DNA from: Microbacterium cremeum | GTDB taxonomy: Bacteria; Actinomycetota; Actinomycetes; Actinomycetales; Microbacteriaceae | Length of the DNA stretch: 64,000 nucleotides | Direction of reading: 5' to 3' | Assembly: GCF_015277855.1 (NCBI RefSeq) | Contig: NZ_CP063812.1 | Span: forward strand, 2,108,001-2,172,000 | Shown: piece after piece, positions 51,661 through 61,915 of the stretch | Layout: each line of letters starts with the position of its first letter | Numbering within the stretch: position 1 is the first letter of the stretch | The notes under the pieces: model-generated | Databases searched by the model: none | The model's input: only the letters and a program-made list of their open reading frames with translations | What the model was told of the DNA's origin: nothing | Position numbers and translations under genes: made by a program

Positions 51661-52446
51661 TCAGTTGAGGCTGCGCGTGGACGCGGGGATCACTCCGTCG
51701 CGGTAGAGGTCGGCGGCGGTGTCCTGCAGCGCCGTGAGTGCGACCCGCTGCGTCATCGGTCCGTACGAGATCCGCGCCGCGCCGAGCGCCTCGTACTCGG
51801 CGGCGCTGAGGGCGCCGGGCAGCCCGATCACGCTGAGCTTGCGCTCCCCGATGCCGTCGACGAGCCGGCGGGTGATGTCGGCGTCGAGGATGCCCGGAAC
51901 GAACACCAGGTCGGCGCCGGCGTCGAGATAGGCGCGGCCGCGGACGATGGCGTCGTCGACGGATGCCTCGACCGGGCGCCCGCGGCCGCGCGCGAACGCA
52001 TCGGTGCGGGCGTTGAGCACGAACGGCACTCCCTCGGCCTCGCCCGCGGCGACGATCGCCTCGACGGCGGCGACCGCTTCGTCGAGGGGACGCAGCCGAT
52101 CCTCGACGTTGGCGCCGACGACGCCACGGCCGATGGCGCGGCGCACGGTCTCGCCGGGATCGCCGTAGCCGGCGTCGAGGTCGGCCGTCACTGGGAGGTC
52201 GCCCACGGCCTCGACGATGCGCCCGATCATGTCGAGGGCGATCTCGAGCGGGATCTCGCCGTCGGAGTACCCGAAGGTCGCCGCGATCGAATGGCCCGCC
52301 GTGGCGATGGCGCGCGTCTCGGGGAGTGCCGCGATCGTCTTGGCCGAGACGGCGTCCCAGACGTTCACGACGCGGAGGATCTCGGGCGCGGAATGCAGCC
52401 GCGCGAGCGTTCGGGCCTTGTCTGCCTGTGTGGTCACGCCTTTCAC
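51661..52446 (-). CDS. Isocitrate lyase / PEP mutase superfamily protein
   Basis: A 261-aa TIM-barrel enzyme of the isocitrate lyase/phosphoenolpyruvate mutase family. The segment NVWDAVSAKTIAAL and the substrate-binding AGHSIAATFGYSDGE are typical of the subgroup that also includes carboxyvinyl-carboxyphosphonate mutase and oxaloacetate-type lyases. It is shorter than true isocitrate lyase. The first GTG (52446) and a second at 52437 are both possible starts; neither has good upstream spacing. It lies convergent to metS. The reaction cannot be chosen from sequence. Confidence 0.85.
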   Translation of the reverse strand: MKGVTTQADKARTLARLHSAPEILRVVNVWDAVSAKTIAALPETRAIATAGHSIAATFGYSDGEIPLEIALDMIGRIVEAVGDLPVTADLDAGYGDPGETVRRAIGRGVVGANVEDRLRPLDEAVAAVEAIVAAGEAEGVPFVLNARTDAFARGRGRPVEASVDDAIVRGRAYLDAGADLVFVPGILDADITRRLVDGIGERKLSVIGLPGALSAAEYEALGAARISYGPMTQRVALTALQDTAADLYRDGVIPASTRSLN

Positions 52447-52481
52447 GTTAGCGGTGCGTCACGACCCCGGGACGCACCGCC

Positions 52482-52916
52482 TCACGATTCGCGCACCGCC
52501 CCGTCGAGGTAGACCCATCTGCCCGCGCGGCGGACGAACCGGCTGCGCTCGTGCAGTTCGCCCCGGTCGCGGCCGTGGCGCCACCGCGCACGGAACTCGA
52601 CGGTTCCCTCGTCGTCGCCTTCGGCGCCGGCCTCGACGTGGACGATCTCCAGCCCGGTCCAGTGCTGCGCGGGGTCGAGCGCGAGCTCGGCCGGGCGCGT
52701 GCGCGGGTGCCACGTCGACGCGAGGTGACGCGCGTCACCCACGACGAACGCGGTGTAGCGCGACCGCATCAGACCTTCGGCGGTCGGCGCAGGCTCTCCG
52801 CGCAGCACCGGGCGGCAGCATCCGTCGAAGCGCTGGCCGCTGCCGCACGCACAGGGGTCGTCCGCCGAGAGGCGCGCGAATCCGCCCGCCGAGCGGGCCG
52901 CGGGTCCGAACGACAC
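52482..52916 (-). CDS. SEC-C motif / YchJ (UPF0225) family protein
   Basis: A 144-aa protein of the YchJ family. The SEC-C metal-binding motif is DPCACGSGQRFDGCC near residues 20-34, and the rest is a small alpha+beta NTF2-like domain containing MRSRYTAFVVGDARHLASTWH. It starts with a GTG immediately after the stop of the DksA/TraR gene (one base between them), so the two are likely co-transcribed. A zinc-dependent function is expected, with no known substrate. Confidence 0.9.
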   Translation of the reverse strand: MSFGPAARSAGGFARLSADDPCACGSGQRFDGCCRPVLRGEPAPTAEGLMRSRYTAFVVGDARHLASTWHPRTRPAELALDPAQHWTGLEIVHVEAGAEGDDEGTVEFRARWRHGRDRGELHERSRFVRRAGRWVYLDGAVRES

Positions 52917-52917
52917 G

Positions 52918-53283
52918 TCAGGAGCCCGCTTTCTCGGCGCACGAGACGCAGCGGGTCGCGAACGGACGCACGCGCAGACGCGCGATCGGGATGCCGCGGC
53001 CGCAGTCGACGCATACGCCGTAGGTCCCGGCTTCCCACCGCTGCACGGCGTCGTCGATCTCGGTGATCTCGCGCAGCGCCGCCTCCTGGAGCCCCACCGC
53101 GCGCGCCCACTCCCCCGACAGCGTGACGCCTTCGGGATCGTGCTCGTCGTCGGCGACGTCCGCACCGCGATCGGCGCGCAGCTCCGCGATCGTCTCGTCC
53201 ATCGCCGCCAGGCGCGCGACGGCGTGCTCGCGCAACTCGTCCAGGAGCTCGCGCAGCTCGGTCCTGCTCGCGGCGGAGGTCAT
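52918..53283 (-). CDS. DksA/TraR C4-type zinc-finger protein
   Basis: A 121-aa protein with an N-terminal helical region (coiled-coil type, about 5-85) and a C-terminal C4 zinc finger CVDCGRGIPIARL...CVSC at about 91-115. DksA-like proteins reach the RNA polymerase secondary channel; actinobacterial members such as RSP-type or DksA-like factors also exist. The ATG at 53283 gives the usual length. It is followed directly by the SEC-C protein gene, and its upstream neighbour, the small lipoprotein gene, is 47 bases away on the same strand. Confidence 0.88.
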   Translation of the reverse strand: MTSAASRTELRELLDELREHAVARLAAMDETIAELRADRGADVADDEHDPEGVTLSGEWARAVGLQEAALREITEIDDAVQRWEAGTYGVCVDCGRGIPIARLRVRPFATRCVSCAEKAGS

Positions 53284-53330
53284 CGATGAAGCGTACGCCC
53301 GTGGACGGTCGTAGAGCACGTGCCCTGCCG

Positions 53331-53696
53331 TCAGTCCGATACCTCGACCGTGAACGTCACATCCTGGATGCCGCCGCCGGAGTTGGAGAGCACGACCTCC
53401 GTCCGCCCCTCCGCGAGGCCCTCCACACCCGGGTTGAAGGTCGCGCCGTCCTCTTCGCGGCCCGGCGTGAACCGGGCGATGGACGGGTCGGCGACCTCGC
53501 CGCGGTAGCTGTCGACGGCGAGATCGCCGGTGTCGATGTTCAGCACCTGCCCGACCTCGAGCTCGACGGTCGCCCCCTGCAGCGACCCCGCATCGCGGGT
53601 CACGGGTGCGATGACGGGCTCCGCGGGCACGCACGCGGCGAGGAGCAGGACGATTCCGGCGACGAGGGTCGCCGCGAGCGGCTGGACGGACTTCAT
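53331..53696 (-). CDS. Small lipoprotein at the end of the nonulosonate cassette
   Basis: A 121-aa exported protein. The leader ends in LLAAC, giving a probable lipidated C22. The mature part (about 30-121) is all-beta in character, with GATVELEVGQVLNI, a central VADPSIARFTPG and a terminal VTFTVEVSD. It resembles Ig-like or chagasin-like small domains, but I cannot confirm either. It starts only 4 bases after the DUF6716 stop, so it is likely the last gene of the nonulosonate operon. Its role may be glycan binding or assembly at the surface, which is inference. Confidence 0.75.
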   Translation of the reverse strand: MKSVQPLAATLVAGIVLLLAACVPAEPVIAPVTRDAGSLQGATVELEVGQVLNIDTGDLAVDSYRGEVADPSIARFTPGREEDGATFNPGVEGLAEGRTEVVLSNSGGGIQDVTFTVEVSD

Positions 53697-53700
53697 GCCG

Positions 53701-55011
53701 TCATGATGGCAGGCGCACGTGCCGCTCGGCCAGGGGGGCGACCGGCGCCGAGCGCGCCCAGCGCAGCGCGCGGCGTGACCGCTGCAGCATCCGCACCACG
53801 GTGCGCAGCGGCATCCCGATCGCGTAGGCCACCGCGCCGGCCGCGGACGCGTCGTCGGCGCCGAGCGCGGTCTTGCGCTCCCACGCGTCGCGCAACGCGC
53901 CGCCGCGCCGGGCGAACGGCGCGCGCGGCGCGAGCGCGTCGGCGCGTCGCAGCGAGACGAGCTGCGCGAGCCGGTCCTCCCAGTCGTCGGCGTGCGGGGG
54001 GTGGAAGTAGTTGTCGTCGAGCCATTCCGGATCCGGATGCCGGAACCGTCGCGCGACGACGTCGTCCTCGGAGCCGAGCAGATCGGCGTCGGCGAGCGTC
54101 TCGTTGATCAGCCGCGGCGACACTCCGAACGTGTCGAGGGCGATCACGGGCACACCACGGGCGATCGCCTCGATCGCGGCGGTCGAGCTCACCGTGACCA
54201 GACCCTCCGCAGCGTCGAGGGCGTCACCCATCGCGGCGGTGGAGGTCACCAGGTTCGGGGGAAGCGGGCCGAGCGACGCGAGAAGCTCGGGATAGCCGTC
54301 CTGCTCGACGTGCGTCTGATGCTCGCCGGTCGCCGCGCGCAGCTTCACCACGACCCGGCGTCCGGGATCGGCTTCGGCGGCTCGCACCAGCATCCGCGCG
54401 ATGCGCAGACGATCGGCTCGGTCCGCCGGGACCTTCGCCTGCGTGGCGAACACCAGGTCGGTGCCCTCGGCGGCCGCACGGCGCCCGGGACGCGACCGCG
54501 CGAACGGCAGCGTGGCGAGCGCGTAGCGATGCGTGTAGCCGGTCCGGGCCGACAGCGCGCCGAACTCGCGCAGCTCTCGGCGCGAGTGCACCACGAACAG
54601 GTCGCTCTGCAGCCGGTACACGACCGCCTTGCGCGTCGCGGGGATCGAGATGCCGGGCAGGCCGGTCGCGATCACGGGCCGGGGCGAGAGCGCCGCGACG
54701 TCGCGCGCGAGCACGCGCACGAGCGGTCCGCGCGCGGCCAGCACGACCGCGTCCGCCCGCAGGTCGCGCAGCCGCGCGGCCAGACCCGCGTACTCCACGC
54801 GCTCGACCCGGTCGCGCGGCAGGCCGCTGCCGCGCAGCGCGGACGCGAGCTGGGCTTCGCTCACCGCGACCGGCGTGCTCAGCACGAGCACCGAGGCATC
54901 CCACCGCCCGTCGAGGCCGCCCAGCAGCGACGCCGCCCACTTCACGTACGAGTCGGTGTCGGCGATCGCGACGACGCGCAGCCGTTCGCCGCGCGGGCCC
55001 GATGGGCTCAC
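53701..55011 (-). CDS. Putative glycosyltransferase, DUF6716 family
   Basis: A 436-aa protein that matches my memory of DUF6716, a putative glycosyltransferase family of actinobacteria. The start region RLRVVAIADTDSYVKW and the middle RLQSDLFVVHSRRELREFG suggest two Rossmann-like (GT-B) halves; the C-terminal half holds GLVTVSSTAAIEAIARGVPVIALDTFG, the donor-binding arrangement of GT-B enzymes. No signal peptide. It begins with a GTG overlapping the neuB-type stop (GTGA), placing it in the nonulosonate operon. It probably builds or extends the glycan. The linkage formed is unknown. Confidence 0.75.
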   Translation of the reverse strand: MSPSGPRGERLRVVAIADTDSYVKWAASLLGGLDGRWDASVLVLSTPVAVSEAQLASALRGSGLPRDRVERVEYAGLAARLRDLRADAVVLAARGPLVRVLARDVAALSPRPVIATGLPGISIPATRKAVVYRLQSDLFVVHSRRELREFGALSARTGYTHRYALATLPFARSRPGRRAAAEGTDLVFATQAKVPADRADRLRIARMLVRAAEADPGRRVVVKLRAATGEHQTHVEQDGYPELLASLGPLPPNLVTSTAAMGDALDAAEGLVTVSSTAAIEAIARGVPVIALDTFGVSPRLINETLADADLLGSEDDVVARRFRHPDPEWLDDNYFHPPHADDWEDRLAQLVSLRRADALAPRAPFARRGGALRDAWERKTALGADDASAAGAVAYAIGMPLRTVVRMLQRSRRALRWARSAPVAPLAERHVRLPS

Positions 55012-55880
55012 GCCGGGACGCGGCGGAGCTTCGCCATCGGCGCGAGCTCGCCGGGGTAGACGCGCTTGACGCCGTCACCCAGTGCGGCCTCGATGACGCG
55101 GATATCGCGCACGAGGTGCTGCAGGCCCGCGGGCTCGAGCGAGGCGGCGTGGTCGGACCCCCACATCGTGCGGTCCAGCGTGATGTGCCGCTCCACGGCG
55201 ACCGCGCCGAGGGCGACGGCGGCGAGCGAGATCTGCAGGCCGCGCTCGTGCCCCGAGTAGCCGACGGGAACACCGGGGTACCGCTCGCGCAGCGCCGGGA
55301 TCATGCGCAGGTTCGCCTCGCCGGGCTCCATCGGGTACGTCGAGGTGGCGTGCATGAGCAGCAGACGCTCGGTGCCGAGCACCTCGATGGCCGCGTCGAT
55401 CTCTTCGATCGTAGACATCCCCGTCGAGAGGATGATCGTCTTGCCGGTGTCGCGGAGGGCCCGCAGCAGTCCGTGGTCGGTGAGGCAGGCCGAGGCGACC
55501 TTGTGCGCGTGGACCCCGAGGTCCTCGAGGAACGCGACGCTCGGCTCGTCCCACGGCGACGCGAACCACTCCAGCCCCCGCAGCATCGCGTGGTCGGACA
55601 CCTCGATGTACTGGTCGCGGTCGAACTCGACGCGCTGCCGGTAGGCGAAGTACGTCATCGTGCCCCACGGGGTCTCGCGCGGCACATCGCGCATGTGCTC
55701 GGGCGTGGCGATCTCGGGCGTGCGCTTCTGGAACTTCACGGCATCCACCCCGGCGTCGGCCGCGACGTCGATGAGGCGCTTGGCCAGTTCGACGTCGCCG
55801 TTGTGGTTGAGACCGATCTCGGCGATGACGTACGCGGGTCGCCCGCCTCCCACGACGCGGTTTCCGATCCTGACGGTCAT
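55008..55880 (-). CDS. NeuB-type nonulosonic acid (sialic/Kdn-like) synthase lacking the SAF domain
   Basis: A 290-aa TIM-barrel enzyme that condenses phosphoenolpyruvate with a six-carbon sugar to form a nine-carbon 2-keto-3-deoxy acid. The family motifs AEIGLNHNGD at 20-29, AVKFQK near 47-52, LSTGMSTIEEID, SGHERGL and ERHITLDR are intact. Ordinary NeuB is about 345 aa with a C-terminal antifreeze/SAF domain that caps the partner active site; here the protein stops after the barrel. The start is an ATG overlapping the upstream gene (ATGA). The product may be Kdn or another nonulosonate, possibly phosphorylated. Confidence 0.88.
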   Translation of the reverse strand: MTVRIGNRVVGGGRPAYVIAEIGLNHNGDVELAKRLIDVAADAGVDAVKFQKRTPEIATPEHMRDVPRETPWGTMTYFAYRQRVEFDRDQYIEVSDHAMLRGLEWFASPWDEPSVAFLEDLGVHAHKVASACLTDHGLLRALRDTGKTIILSTGMSTIEEIDAAIEVLGTERLLLMHATSTYPMEPGEANLRMIPALRERYPGVPVGYSGHERGLQISLAAVALGAVAVERHITLDRTMWGSDHAASLEPAGLQHLVRDIRVIEAALGDGVKRVYPGELAPMAKLRRVPA

Positions 55881-57136
55881 GATGCCTCCTGTGGTGCGGT
55901 GGTCGGACCGGTCGCGCTGCGGCGACCGGTCGCGTGGATCTGTGTGCTGCCGGTGCTGCCGGTGCTGGCGCTGCCGGTGCGCGACGCCGTCCCGGCGAGC
56001 ACGCGCTCGGCGAGCTCGCGCACGGCGCCCGCCCCGCCGCGGTGGTCCAGGACCACGCGCGCCGACGCCAGCACCAGCGGATGCGCCTCGGGGACGGCCA
56101 CCGGCCACCCCACGAGGTCGAGGCAGGGCAGGTCGTTGACGTCGTTGCCGAGGTACGCGATGCGCGACGGCGCGATGCCGTGCTCGTCCGCCCACGACTG
56201 CAGGGCCGCGGCCTTGTCGCCCTGGCCCTGCAGGACATCGACGCCGAGCTTGCGGGCACGGGCCGACACCACCGGGTTGGTCTCGGTCGACAGGATGAGG
56301 AAGGGGATGCCGGCGGCCCGCAGCAGCGAGACGCCCATGCCGTCCGAGCGGCTCACGGTGACCGACTCGCCGCCGCCCTGATCGACGCGGACGCTGTCGT
56401 CGGTGTGGACGCCGTCGAAGTCGGTGACGACCGCGTCGGCGATGATCGGCTCGGGACGGTCGACGAGCGGGGCGAGCGCGCGCGCGATCTCCAGCTCATC
56501 GGCCGTGTCGATCTCGAGGGCACCGCGCGGCGACACCTCGGCGATGCCGACGCTTCCGAAGAAGCGGTGGCGGGAGGCACGGAATCCCGCCGCGCGCATG
56601 ACGTAGAAGCCGCCGGTCTCGAGGTAGTGCGGCGTGCGGTCCTGGCGGCGAGGCCGCACCTCGACGTCGTGGTTGACCGCCTGTGCGGCACCGCCGGCGC
56701 CCTTCTCCCACAGGAACCCGTAGGTCTCGACCGCGGAGAACACGCTGTCGCGACGGCGTGAGCGCACCAGCTGCACGGCGCCCGCGAGGGCGTCGATGTC
56801 GATGAAGGGCGAGGTGGCCTGTACGAACGCGACGACGCCGACGTCGATGCGACGCGCTTCGAGCACGTCGAGGGCGTGCAGCAGCGCGCTCTCGGACGAC
56901 GCCTCGTCGCCCGACAGCTCGGCCGGGCGCGCGATCGTCTCGGCGCCCCACTCGGCGGCGACCGCGGCGATCTCTGCGTCGTCGGTGGTGACGACGACGC
57001 GATCGATCGCATCGCACCGCACCGCGGCGTCCACGGCCCGTGCGACGAGCGGCACGCCGCCGACGCGACGCAGGTTCTTGCGGACGACGCCCTTCGACCC
57101 GCCGCGGGCGGGGATGATGGCGACGACCTCGCTCAC
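55877..57136 (-). CDS. Fusion of CMP-nonulosonate synthetase and KdsC-like HAD phosphatase
   Basis: A 419-aa two-domain protein. Residues 1-230 are a NeuA-type cytidylyltransferase (IIPARGGSKGV at 7-17; QATSPF at 106-111; a later LEIDTADEL). Residues 231-385 are a KdsC-like HAD phosphatase, with the nucleophile in VTDFDGV (D239, acid/base D241), and GNDVNDLP at 330-337. A low-complexity GSASTGSTGS tail follows, encoded by a short GTGCTGCCG-type DNA repeat at about 55938-55979. The fusion would remove the 9-phosphate and activate the sugar as CMP ester. The GTG start overlaps the upstream gene by 4 bases. Confidence 0.88.
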   Translation of the reverse strand: MSEVVAIIPARGGSKGVVRKNLRRVGGVPLVARAVDAAVRCDAIDRVVVTTDDAEIAAVAAEWGAETIARPAELSGDEASSESALLHALDVLEARRIDVGVVAFVQATSPFIDIDALAGAVQLVRSRRRDSVFSAVETYGFLWEKGAGGAAQAVNHDVEVRPRRQDRTPHYLETGGFYVMRAAGFRASRHRFFGSVGIAEVSPRGALEIDTADELEIARALAPLVDRPEPIIADAVVTDFDGVHTDDSVRVDQGGGESVTVSRSDGMGVSLLRAAGIPFLILSTETNPVVSARARKLGVDVLQGQGDKAAALQSWADEHGIAPSRIAYLGNDVNDLPCLDLVGWPVAVPEAHPLVLASARVVLDHRGGAGAVRELAERVLAGTASRTGSASTGSTGSTQIHATGRRSATGPTTAPQEAS

Positions 57137-58038
57137 GCGACGGCCTTCCGGCGCGGCGTCGTCCCGGTGCGGACGGTCGATCCGGTGCCCGCGAGCACGA
57201 GCGGCAGCGTGCTCGTCGTGCTCGAGGGCAGCGTGCGGATGTCGAGCGGCTGCCGGGCGCCGGCGAGCACGAGCTCCACCGGCAGCCGCGTCTCGAGGAT
57301 GTCGACCCCGGGGATCGCGGCGACGGCGGCGAGCTGCTCGGCGGTCTCACGGCGATGCGGCAGGTAGACCGCGCCGCCGGCTGCGGCATCCGTCACCCAC
57401 GCGATGTAGTCGGCCGCCGGCATACGGCCGTCGACGGGCCGTGCACTGCCGAGCACGATACGACGGCCGAGATCGGGCGCCGCCGGCGCCGTCGCGCGCG
57501 TCCACGAGAAGTCATGGCGACGGATGCCGAACCCGCGGTCCCCGAGCGCCTCGACGCGGTCGGCGCCGAGGTCGAACGCCGTGAAGAGGTGGGCGCGACG
57601 GGCTCCTGCGCGCCGGTGCACGACCTCCGCGGCGAACGGCGCGACGAGGGTCGTGAGGCCCCGCTCGTGCACGCCCGGTCGCGCGTACGGCCTCCGGCCG
57701 AGCAGGGAGTCGGCGAACGAGAGCGCAAGGGCGCCGTCGTCGAGGAAGGTGACCCGGTGCGGGCGGAGGACGCCGGCGGCGAGGCGGAACTGGCCCGAGA
57801 ATCCGTCGCCGATCAGCCAGTGCCCGTGCCGCGCGAGGAGGTTCCACGGGATGCCGAGATAGGGCTCGAGCTCGCCGAAGCGCGCGCCCCGGGCCAGCAG
57901 CTCATCGGCCGTCTCGGAGATCTGCGCCGTGAGCCGGCCCGCGACCGGCACCGTGGTGCGATGCGCGGCGGCCCACTCCGCGGCGCCGAGGAGCTGAAGG
58001 GGCGACTCCACCCACGCGAGCACGTCGTTCCTGCCCAT
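57133..58038 (-). CDS. GT52-like (sialyltransferase-type) glycosyltransferase
   Basis: A 301-aa protein with features recalled from lipooligosaccharide sialyltransferase-type enzymes: WVESPLQLLGAAE near 9-21, FLDDG at 98-102, YLPHRRE at 225-231, and SSTTSTL at 272-278, the last two matching the CMP-binding His-Pro-type and Ser-Ser segments of sialyltransferases. Length is close to the GT52 family. There is no membrane helix. An AGAGGAGGC ribosome-binding site precedes the ATG at 58038, and it is the first gene of the cassette, ending in GTGA overlap with the next. Donor, acceptor and linkage are unknown. Confidence 0.7.
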   Translation of the reverse strand: MGRNDVLAWVESPLQLLGAAEWAAAHRTTVPVAGRLTAQISETADELLARGARFGELEPYLGIPWNLLARHGHWLIGDGFSGQFRLAAGVLRPHRVTFLDDGALALSFADSLLGRRPYARPGVHERGLTTLVAPFAAEVVHRRAGARRAHLFTAFDLGADRVEALGDRGFGIRRHDFSWTRATAPAAPDLGRRIVLGSARPVDGRMPAADYIAWVTDAAAGGAVYLPHRRETAEQLAAVAAIPGVDILETRLPVELVLAGARQPLDIRTLPSSTTSTLPLVLAGTGSTVRTGTTPRRKAVA

Positions 58039-58163
58039 GTCGCCTCCTCTCGCCGGCCGTTCCCCCCACGGTGAGCGGCGGACGTGAACGAGACGGGTTC
58101 CGGCAGGCGACGCGAAGCGGTCCGCGAGGTGAACGGCTCGTGGCGTCGGCACCGCGTGCCAGG

Positions 58164-59105
58164 ATGGCCGTTGTGGCTGACCGACTGATGTTGCTCGACA
58201 GTGCTTCGCTGTACTTCCGCGCGTTCTACGGCGTGCCCGACACGGTGCGCGCACCGGACGGCACGCCCGTCAACGCGGTGCGCGGGTTCCTCGACATCAT
58301 CACGAAGCTCGTGACGACGTACCGGCCGACGCACCTCGTGGCCTGCTGGGACGACGACTGGCGCCCGCAGTGGCGGGTCGACCTCATCCCGACCTACAAG
58401 TCGCACCGCGTCGCAGAGGTCGTGGCCGCCGGCCCCGACGTCGAGGTGGTGCCGGATCCGCTCGAGATTCAGGTGCCCGTCATCAGGGCGGCACTCGAAG
58501 CGGTCGGAATCCGCATCGTCGGAGCACCCGAGCACGAGGCCGACGACGTCATCGGCACGCTTGCCACGGCCGCCACGATGCCGGTGGACGTCGTGACCGG
58601 CGACCGCGATCTCTTCCAGCTCGTCGACGACGGGCGGGACGTGCGCGTCGTCTACACGGCGCGGGGCATGAGCAACCTCGAAGTGCTCACCGATGCATCG
58701 GTGGTCGCGAAATACGGGGTGCTGCCGTCCCAGTACGCCGACTTCGCGACGCTGCGCGGCGACACCTCCGACGGACTTCCCGGCGTCGCCGGGGTCGGCG
58801 AGAAGACCGCGGCGGGTCTCCTCGCGACCCACGGCGACCTCGAGCGCATCATCGAGGCGGCGGCGAGCGGCGAGGGGATGTCGGCCGGAGTCCGCGCGAA
58901 GATCCTCGCGGCCCTCCCCTACCTCGAGGTCGCCCCGAAGGTCGTCGCGGTCGTGCGCGACCTTCCGCTGACCGTTCCCGACACGCGGCTGCGCCCCCTC
59001 ACCCCGGAGCAGAAGACGGGTGCCGCCGCCCTCGCCGAGACGTGGGCACTGGGCGCCGCGATGAACCGCATCGTCGACGCGTTCGACGCCCTCGACGCCC
59101 GGTGA
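58164..59105 (+). CDS. 5'-3' exonuclease (polA N-terminal-type, stand-alone)
   Basis: A 313-aa protein of the 5'-3' exonuclease family that resembles the N-terminal domain of DNA polymerase I. The metal-binding acidic residues are seen in MLLDSASLYFRAF, CWDDDWRPQWR, EHEADDVIGTLA and TGDRDLFQLV; the helix-hairpin-helix is GLPGVAGVGEKTAAGLL. A stand-alone copy is common in actinobacteria. The ATG at 58164 is given; a GTG at 58173 with AGGATGG upstream is an alternative. It is divergent from the nonulosonate cassette, with a 125-base gap. Confidence 0.9.
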   Translation: MAVVADRLMLLDSASLYFRAFYGVPDTVRAPDGTPVNAVRGFLDIITKLVTTYRPTHLVACWDDDWRPQWRVDLIPTYKSHRVAEVVAAGPDVEVVPDPLEIQVPVIRAALEAVGIRIVGAPEHEADDVIGTLATAATMPVDVVTGDRDLFQLVDDGRDVRVVYTARGMSNLEVLTDASVVAKYGVLPSQYADFATLRGDTSDGLPGVAGVGEKTAAGLLATHGDLERIIEAAASGEGMSAGVRAKILAALPYLEVAPKVVAVVRDLPLTVPDTRLRPLTPEQKTGAAALAETWALGAAMNRIVDAFDALDAR

Positions 59106-60742: not shown

Positions 60743-61804
60743 TCAGGACGCGAGGGCGCGCGTGGTCTGCACCCAGCGCTCCAGCGTGGCGGTGGCGCCG
60801 CCGCTGTCGATCGCCGCCGCGGCCTCGTCGCGCGCTTCGGCGAGCCGCTCCAGGATCGGGCGCTGCACCTGCGCCGCATCGCGGAACAGTCGGTAGGCCA
60901 CGATGCCCGCAGCCGCGTTGAGGAGCACGATGTCGCGCACCGGGCCCTCCTCACCGCCCAGCACCCGGCGCACCACGGCAGCGTTGTGCGGCGGGTCGCC
61001 GCCGAGCAGGTCGTCGATCTCCGCCAGCGGGATGCCGAGATCGCGCGGGTCGAGGTCGTGCTCGTGGATGTCGCCGCGGCTGATCTCCCACAGGCGGCTG
61101 TGACCGGTCGTCGTCAGCTCGTCCAGCCCGTCGTCGCCCCGGAACACCAGTGCCGTCGCCCCGCGGGTGCGGAACACACCGGTGATGAGCGGCACGCGGT
61201 CCAGCTGCGCCACCCCGACGGCGTTCGCCTCGGCGCGCGCGGGGTTGACCAGCGGACCGAGGAAGTTGAACACGGTCGGGACGCCGAGCTCGCTGCGCGA
61301 CGGCCCGGCATGCTTGAACCCCGGGTGGAACGCCGCGGCGAATGCGAACGTGATGCCGGCGCGCGACAGCGTCTCGGCCACGGCTTCGGGTGACAGTGCG
61401 AGATCGACGCCCAGCGCCCCCAGCACGTCCGACGACCCCGAGGACGAGCTGGCCGCGCGGTTGCCGTGCTTGACGACGGGGATCCCGGATGCCGCCGCCA
61501 CCAGCGCCGACATCGTCGACACGTTGACGGTGCCGAAGCGGTCGCCGCCGGTGCCCACGATGTCGAGGACTCCGGGGTCCACAGGCAGCGGGAGCGCCGC
61601 CTCGAGGATCGCGTCGCGGAAGCCGACGATCTCGTCGACCGTCTCGCCCTTGGCCCGCAGCGCGATCAGGAACCCCGACAGCTGAGAGGGCGTCGCCGAG
61701 CCCGACATGATCTGCCGCATCGCCCACGTCGATTCCGAGACGCTGAGATCGCGCCGCTCCAGGAGTGTCGTGAGGATGCCCGGCCAGGTGTACAGCTCCG
61801 CCAT
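60743..61804 (-). CDS. trpD: Anthranilate phosphoribosyltransferase
   Basis: A 353-aa tryptophan-pathway enzyme joining anthranilate to phosphoribosyl pyrophosphate. The PRPP-binding loop is [15 protein letters not shown] and the anthranilate-site region is [22 protein letters not shown] (split as KHGNRAA and SSGSSDVL). A further conserved [11 protein letters not shown] is present. Length is normal. It lies alone; the other trp genes are elsewhere, as in many actinobacteria where trpD is next to ctaE. The start is the ATG at 61804. It is divergent from ctaE. Confidence 0.97.
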
Positions 61805-61915
61805 GGCTGACAAGCCTAGCCGCGCGCGCGAATCGAAACGGATTCGTGACACGGGGTCCCGCACGGCACGATTCCCCGTCTTCACCTCGGGTTCACGGCG
61901 GACTCGCGGCGTTCT

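Follow-up and report, generated by a model that had tools for sequence, protein, structure and literature searches.

We analysed a group of four genes on the minus strand of the window, that is, the whole stretch of 64,000 nucleotides of Microbacterium cremeum DNA (contig NZ_CP063812.1, positions 2,108,001 to 2,172,000), numbered here from its first letter. The genes encode a protein of no named family, called here ORFa (open reading frame a), a NeuA-type cytidylyltransferase fused to a HAD-type phosphatase (NeuA-HAD), a NeuB-family nonulosonate synthase, and a DUF6716 protein. Judged from sequence comparison and structure prediction, their probable role is to synthesise a nonulosonic acid in activated form and to link it to a glycan of the cell surface; the likeliest sugar is 3-deoxy-D-glycero-D-galacto-non-2-ulosonic acid (Kdn). 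The own genome, a single 3.98-Mb contig that is 99.98% complete, has one copy of NeuB.

A previous reading of the DNA alone (hereafter the sequence-only reading) had proposed a cassette of five genes, the fifth encoding a lipoprotein. All five open reading frames were found at the positions of Table 1 and in the frames proposed. The junctions, in the order ORFa/NeuA-HAD/NeuB/DUF6716, read GTGA, ATGA and GTGA, each of them a 4-base overlap, and 4 bases separate the DUF6716 gene from the lipoprotein gene. The letters thus bore out the overlaps and the gap that had been described.

Table 1. Genes of the cassette and the adjoining lipoprotein gene (window positions)
Feature	Position	Strand	Basis or remark
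ORFa, GT-B protein resembling nonulosonate transferases (predicted), 301 aa	57133-58038	-	Without Pfam/NCBIfam family
NeuA (residues ~4-220) + KdsC/Kdn-9-phosphate-phosphatase-like HAD (~233-381)	55877-57136	-	Pfam, sub-cut-off NCBIfam, PDB, motifs
NeuB-family nonulosonate synthase without SAF, 290 aa	55008-55880	-	Pfam PF03102
DUF6716 putative GT-B glycosyltransferase, 436 aa	53701-55011	-	Pfam PF20471, AlphaFold2
Small predicted lipoprotein, outside the cassette	53331-53696	-	Lipobox-like LLAAC

Predicted proteins of the cassette

NeuA-HAD showed the Pfam domains CTP_transf_3 and HAD. It matched NeuA-type and HAD-type PDB chains by sequence, and the catalytic motifs were present. NCBIfam matches of the cassette proteins, PseF, KdsC, Kdn-9-phosphate phosphatase, NeuB_NnaB and PseI among them, were all below the cut-offs; the Kdn-9-phosphate phosphatase equivalog was not reached, with 90.7 bits against a cut-off of 180. 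The HAD domain matched PDB chain 3e81 (E 1.4e-21), which was deposited as 'acylneuraminate cytidylyltransferase' and which we take to be the Bacteroides Kdn-9-phosphate phosphatase. The HAD residues D239, D241, S283, K308, D332 and D335, to which we assign catalytic motif roles by assumption, were each shared by no fewer than 32 of the 33 relatives from Microbacteriaceae, and T284 was found in 19 of them. Judged from its motifs, the phosphatase fused to NeuA is apparently intact. The domain order is that of animal CMAS, and the two halves of NeuA-HAD matched 1qwj and 3ewi by sequence, which are presumably the two halves of animal CMAS. The HAD domain of animal CMAS has lost its activity, whereas the motifs of the HAD domain in the window are intact. 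The C-terminal tail past the HAD domain (55877-55990) is of low complexity and rich in Gly, Ser and Thr.

The NeuB protein matched PF03102 with an E value of 5.7e-79, and Pfam showed no SAF domain in it. The absence of SAF was read from Pfam for the proteins of the window and of locus L095 (L and G numbers denote our loci and genomes), and from the tail length for the remaining NeuBs. The NeuB domain is followed by 2-13 residues in 44 cassette NeuBs and by no more than 25 in 97 others, which come from Streptomyces and further actinobacteria; the range over both groups is 2-25. Against this, 12 distant NeuBs from the same family have tails of at least 52 residues. A tree was computed from 86 NeuB sequences, including 12 randomly sampled from the named Streptomyces NeuBs. 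We rooted it on the branch that separates the distant NeuBs from the rest, and its grouping, not its direction, is readable. A very divergent second NeuB-like protein without a tail (L107:14731-15969) lies on a long branch.

For ORFa, Pfam and NCBIfam gave no match up to E 1, and a sequence search of the PDB gave none up to E 10. The fold search placed its predicted structure in the GT-B fold, with a polysialyltransferase of family GT38 as the nearest one. The D-D-G, His and Glu positions were kept in all 99 relatives read. The equivalence of residues between ORFa and the GT38 and GT52 sialyltransferases was set by order and spacing, without superposition of coordinates, and the roles of the residues in sialyltransferases were taken from excerpts of two papers (PMC5517516, PMC2169525). 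On this basis, ORFa is predicted to share the fold of those enzymes and has the same D/E-D/E-G, His, Glu and Ser-Ser/Thr positions. It differs from them in having H-R where they have H-P, in being without a sequence-level match, and in being 80 residues shorter than 5wc6. ORFa is therefore best described as a predicted sialyltransferase-like protein. The designation 'GT52-like' had to be given up, as membership of GT52 was rejected by all sequence models tried; the sialyltransferase-type fold was retained.

DUF6716 matched PF20471 (E 1.9e-127), which Pfam labels 'putative glycosyltransferase'. A PDB search with the DUF6716 profile gave nothing useful, and a literature search on DUF6716 found no paper. 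In a control set of 14 genomes, PF20471 matched one, Escherichia coli.

Conservation of the cassette within Microbacteriaceae

Some NeuB match was found in 75 of 199 sampled Microbacteriaceae genomes, and a full-length NeuB orthologue of at least 68% identity in 55 of them, our own included. Orthologous loci were fetched for 40 of the 55 full-length rows outside the window; they represent 39 genomes, one of them with two copies. Of the 40 loci, 38 have a co-oriented NeuA upstream of NeuB and 36 a co-oriented DUF6716 downstream of it; an ORFa orthologue is present upstream in 10. Since the arrangement of NeuA, NeuB and DUF6716 recurs in these orthologous loci, the grouping of the genes is more than chance; a search for conserved synteny had been proposed in the sequence-only reading, and for these genes it was found. 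The flanks vary. Several genera have an acyl-CoA carboxylase-type gene on one side of the cassette and a biotin ligase gene on the other, whether ORFa is present or not, and in others the cassette adjoins folD and glyA. At the biotin-ligase site, the region a few kb downstream of the cassette holds a gene of the LytR-CpsA-Psr (LCP) family, whose members are ligases of wall glycopolymers (L058:13560-14897 and five other loci); this gene may have an unrelated reason for its place.

Among 40 carrier genomes, 25 had no ORFa match and 15 had one, a count in which a few genomes had some first-look candidates unscored. The match lay in the cassette in 11 of the 15 and elsewhere in four, one of which (G139) has it in two pieces. 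Other proteins are found in the same slot. A PF07388 protein (L032, by Pfam) and a PF07388-type protein (L092, by our own profile) lie directly upstream of NeuA, in the position of ORFa, in loci of the same genus, and a polysialyltransferase-family protein is placed after NeuB in L063. Because polysialyltransferase-family proteins replace ORFa in its slot, ORFa itself may well be a nonulosonate transferase. A profile comparison of ORFa with the PF07388 proteins gave no link (hhalign E 0.4). L100, L102, L106 and L108, which come from actinobacterial families other than Microbacteriaceae, have ORFa and DUF6716 side by side, at a distance from NeuA and NeuB, which are likewise paired.

The HAD domain was found in 30 of the 40 loci, fused to NeuA in 29 and free-standing in one. 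The NeuA cassettes without it are L036, L043, L047, L050, L052, L053, L058, L060, L061 and L066. Their genomes had no strong HAD match elsewhere either; ten of the 40 carrier genomes were without one, and five of the ten showed a weak partial match. The route in these carriers may therefore start from a sugar without phosphate or rely on a different phosphatase. The free-standing case, L033, belongs to the same genus as the window and carries the HAD alone at the place of the fusion; its genome (G164) also has L068, where a second NeuB stands beside a divergent NeuA-HAD. Here the fusion is naturally split, which suggests that its HAD half is able to act in the pathway as a protein of its own. 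A second KdsC-like HAD, 33% identical, was seen in a carrier with a small genome (G030:C1:152531-152977). It would agree with the Kdo (3-deoxy-D-manno-oct-2-ulosonic acid) genes mentioned for Pontimonas in an excerpt of PMC6106888 if G030 is that organism.

The lipoprotein gene did not share in this conservation. It had a single sub-threshold Pfam match (E 0.061), and none of 60 related loci matched it (tblastn, E<=1e-4), including L090, where exonuclease, PHP and phosphoenolpyruvate (PEP) mutase genes flank the cassette as in the window. Since it was unmatched in these loci, the lipoprotein was not counted in the cassette. The proposed cassette of five thus stands for the four genes of conserved grouping, and the lipoprotein was rejected as its fifth member.

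Around the cassette, a 5'-3' exonuclease gene lies upstream in the opposite orientation, and DksA/TraR zinc-finger, YchJ-like and PEP-mutase-like genes lie downstream. Eight window neighbours were scanned, and no polysaccharide genes were recognisable among them; one, at 60743-61828, is a Pfam 'Glycos_transf_3' protein, which we take to be of the TrpD family. A promoter and terminator scan of 52400-58700 gave nothing.

Relation to the teichulosonic-acid locus of Streptomyces

In a class-wide sample, NeuB was matched at E<=1e-40 in 107 of 394 genomes. Twenty loci were fetched, three from our own genus and seventeen from elsewhere, and six of the seventeen (five genomes, one genus) hold DUF6716, NeuA, NeuB and ORFa together. 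Two of the six, L097 and L098, are copies of the set within one Streptomyces-type genome (G337), and the HAD was undetected in both. A scan of named genomes with the NeuB of one such locus was read for the best 80 of 582 relatives, all of which were Streptomyces, the top one at 100% identity. In 72 of these 80 loci the order was DUF6716-NeuA-HAD-NeuB-ORFa, two of them with a doubled domain hit, and the remaining eight were short (5.3-12.3 kb) or cut by a contig end. A polysialyltransferase-family gene was likewise found in 72 of the 80.

The proteins of the window were compared with those of S. tendae (L132), where the set has divergent GT2, PF07388 polysialyltransferase and pyruvyltransferase genes as its neighbours. 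The identity was 63% over 284 residues for NeuB, 51% over 395 columns for NeuA-HAD, 33% for DUF6716 and 32% for ORFa. The ORFa profile aligned with that of its Streptomyces counterpart over 288 columns with a probability of 99.7. All four proteins are thus orthologous and adjacent in Streptomyces as here, the short form of NeuB included. The window differs in its order, in which ORFa comes first and DUF6716 last. A scan of eight neighbours in the window found none of the PF07388, GT2 and pyruvyltransferase genes that adjoin the Streptomyces set; no search for them was made in the remainder of the genome.

A cluster of this kind has been described in Streptomyces, for which Ostash 2014 is reportedly the primary paper, and Promicromonospora, where a similar polymer is on record, is presumably a member of the order to which Microbacterium belongs. 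The descriptions that follow are drawn from excerpts of the papers cited. In S. coelicolor, SCO4878 is listed as a glycosyltransferase, SCO4879 as a conserved hypothetical protein, SCO4880 as a putative transferase and SCO4881 as a polysaccharide biosynthesis protein (PMC2267785), and SCO4881 is given as NeuB (PMC2367054). The genes SCO4873-SCO4882 are described as a teichulosonic-acid cluster under PhoP (PMC13011467), and SLI_5146-SLI_5156 of S. lividans are likewise named teichulosonic-acid genes (PMC8003754). The teichulosonic polymer is described as galactose and Kdn, with up to seven units (PMC11481543, PMC7831098). The SCO4880 counterpart in Planobispora is labelled a sialic acid synthase, one gene off from the above order (PMC8269224), and a Kdn teichulosonic acid is reported for Promicromonospora (PMC6801904).

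We equated SCO4873-SCO4882 with our Streptomyces loci by gene order and product names, the sequences compared being those of S. tendae. On that footing, the cassette appears to hold the core of the Kdn teichulosonic-acid locus of Streptomyces in a compact version with a changed gene order. Because of this orthology, the core pathway is not undescribed, and the suggestion that it might be did not hold for the core. The suggested link to Kdn-type teichulosonic acids, for its part, is well supported by the same orthology.

Predicted product and its meaning

The domains, the conserved loci and the predicted fold of ORFa give good support to the claim that the genes form a nonulosonate cassette and that one or more of them encode a transferase. 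In the proposed pathway, NeuB would form Kdn-9-phosphate from mannose-6-phosphate and phosphoenolpyruvate, the HAD half of NeuA-HAD would remove the phosphate, and the NeuA half would convert Kdn to its cytidine monophosphate (CMP) form, CMP-Kdn. ORFa would transfer Kdn in the manner of a polysialyltransferase, with the Asp of D-D-G as the base, His as the acid and Ser-Ser holding the phosphate. DUF6716 may add the partner sugar of the glycan, or Kdn itself where ORFa is missing. We infer the identity of the sugar, the mannose-6-phosphate substrate, this division of labour and the wall location.

The choice of sugar was weighed on the genes that supply N-acetylmannosamine (ManNAc). None of PF02350 (NeuC/WecB/MnaA), PF04131 (NanE) and PF07221 (AGE) was found in the complete own genome, and the ManA family (PF20511) was present. 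In the 14 control genomes, PF02350 matched 11, PF04131 eight, PF07221 two and ManA seven. The sequence-only reading had noted no NeuC and no acetyltransferase; neither is in the cassette, and the absence of NeuC holds for the whole genome in the PF02350 search. Since the three ManNAc-epimerase families are missing, ManA is present, NeuB is without SAF and the HAD is intact, Kdn from mannose-6-phosphate is favoured over N-acylated sugars as the predicted product. The window differs from the Kdn pathway of Bacteroides thetaiotaomicron in that phosphatase and cytidylyltransferase are in one protein and transferases are attached; in Bacteroides we take the two enzymes to be separate proteins. The phosphorylated route with its dephosphorylation (mannose-6-phosphate, Kdn-9-phosphate, Kdn, CMP-Kdn), which an excerpt of PMC6200933 gives for Bacteroides, would be common to both. 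The same excerpt describes the phosphorylated route of Bacteroides, Prymnesium and humans, in which the phosphate is removed after the synthase, and such a step therefore fits the fused HAD with its intact motifs.

Some facts weigh against this reading. The argument from SAF is weak alone: 6ncs, as short as our NeuB, is labelled N-acetylneuraminate synthetase. The AlphaFold2 model of DUF6716 (pLDDT, the predicted local distance difference test, 90.2) has a GT-B fold, but the closest solved folds are UDP-N-acetylglucosamine (UDP-GlcNAc) 2-epimerases. The structure comparison thus upheld ORFa as a sialyltransferase-type fold and, for DUF6716, the GT-B fold with epimerases nearest.

The former point belongs to a reading in which the cassette makes and attaches an N-acylated nonulosonate (N-acetylneuraminic acid (Neu5Ac), legionaminate or pseudaminate), for which an unseen route would provide the amino sugar. 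The nearest NCBIfam models of NeuB, NnaB and PseI, would agree with this, as would the carriers that have an epimerase: of 40, our own included, 13 have PF02350 and seven have NanE above the curated cut-off. Neither family was found in 23 of the 40 (19 if weak NanE hits count), and our own complete genome lacks both and AGE. Moreover, the reported product of the orthologous cluster is Kdn, and Pfam showed no aminotransferase or acetyltransferase in the cassette, pseudaminate genes elsewhere in the genome not having been searched for. We consider an N-acylated product unlikely.

The latter point was taken seriously after the fold search, since DUF6716 as a NeuC-like 2-epimerase supplying ManNAc would make the three-gene core a complete Neu5Ac-type pathway. 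The GT-B fold is common to DUF6716 and the epimerases, so that the fold does not discriminate; no coordinates were superposed. The acids of the GDT and HxEAG motifs are catalytic in UDP-GlcNAc 2-epimerases. Of 16 PF02350 rows, 14 loci were tried by motif search; epimerases were extracted from 10 of them, with both GDT and H(V/L)EAG in all 10, and the other four yielded no sequence that carried the motif. At these places, matched by strand order, DUF6716 has R/other-G95 and T/S-G117, with G95 kept in 132 and G117 in 133 of 134 relatives. The profile match to epimerases was weak (E 0.032, probability 1.6) and confined to the C-terminal part, and DUF6716 is retained in Streptomyces, whose Kdn route does without a 2-epimerase. 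Because the catalytic acids are seemingly missing, an epimerase role is highly improbable, and we infer that DUF6716 is a transferase.

It is also conceivable that the gene set is a relic, or that it serves a glycolipid, a secreted capsule or a protein glycan instead of a wall glycan. No flippase, ABC exporter or LCP ligase was found in the cassette or the eight scanned neighbours, and many carriers are without ORFa and HAD, as would then be expected. The catalytic positions are intact, however, the coding overlaps are kept, and the set is orthologous to the Streptomyces genes. Such a role is quite unlikely in our view.

A more far-reaching idea is that the cassettes without ORFa are a minimal three-gene Kdn system, with DUF6716 as a new family of CMP-Kdn transferases and the whole as a mobile unit. 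We hold it as tentative and somewhat doubtful. If it is true, a free-standing mobile unit would decorate differing actinobacterial wall glycans with Kdn, and ORFa and the PF07388 proteins would be interchangeable second transferases.

The cassette is real and conserved, and its product is probably Kdn. Among the matches listed in our literature searches, no chemical report of a nonulosonate in Microbacteriaceae was found; for Pontimonas salivibrio, an excerpt of PMC6106888 gives sialic acid as deduced from the genome. As far as we have seen, three things are new: the cassette occurs widely and free-standing in Microbacteriaceae, its transferases are exchanged between loci, and two families of no known function would gain a concrete role. 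A sialic-acid-type surface sugar is thereby predicted for 55 of the 199 sampled genomes of the family, and DUF6716 and the unnamed ORFa family would be tied to a wall polymer known in Streptomyces.

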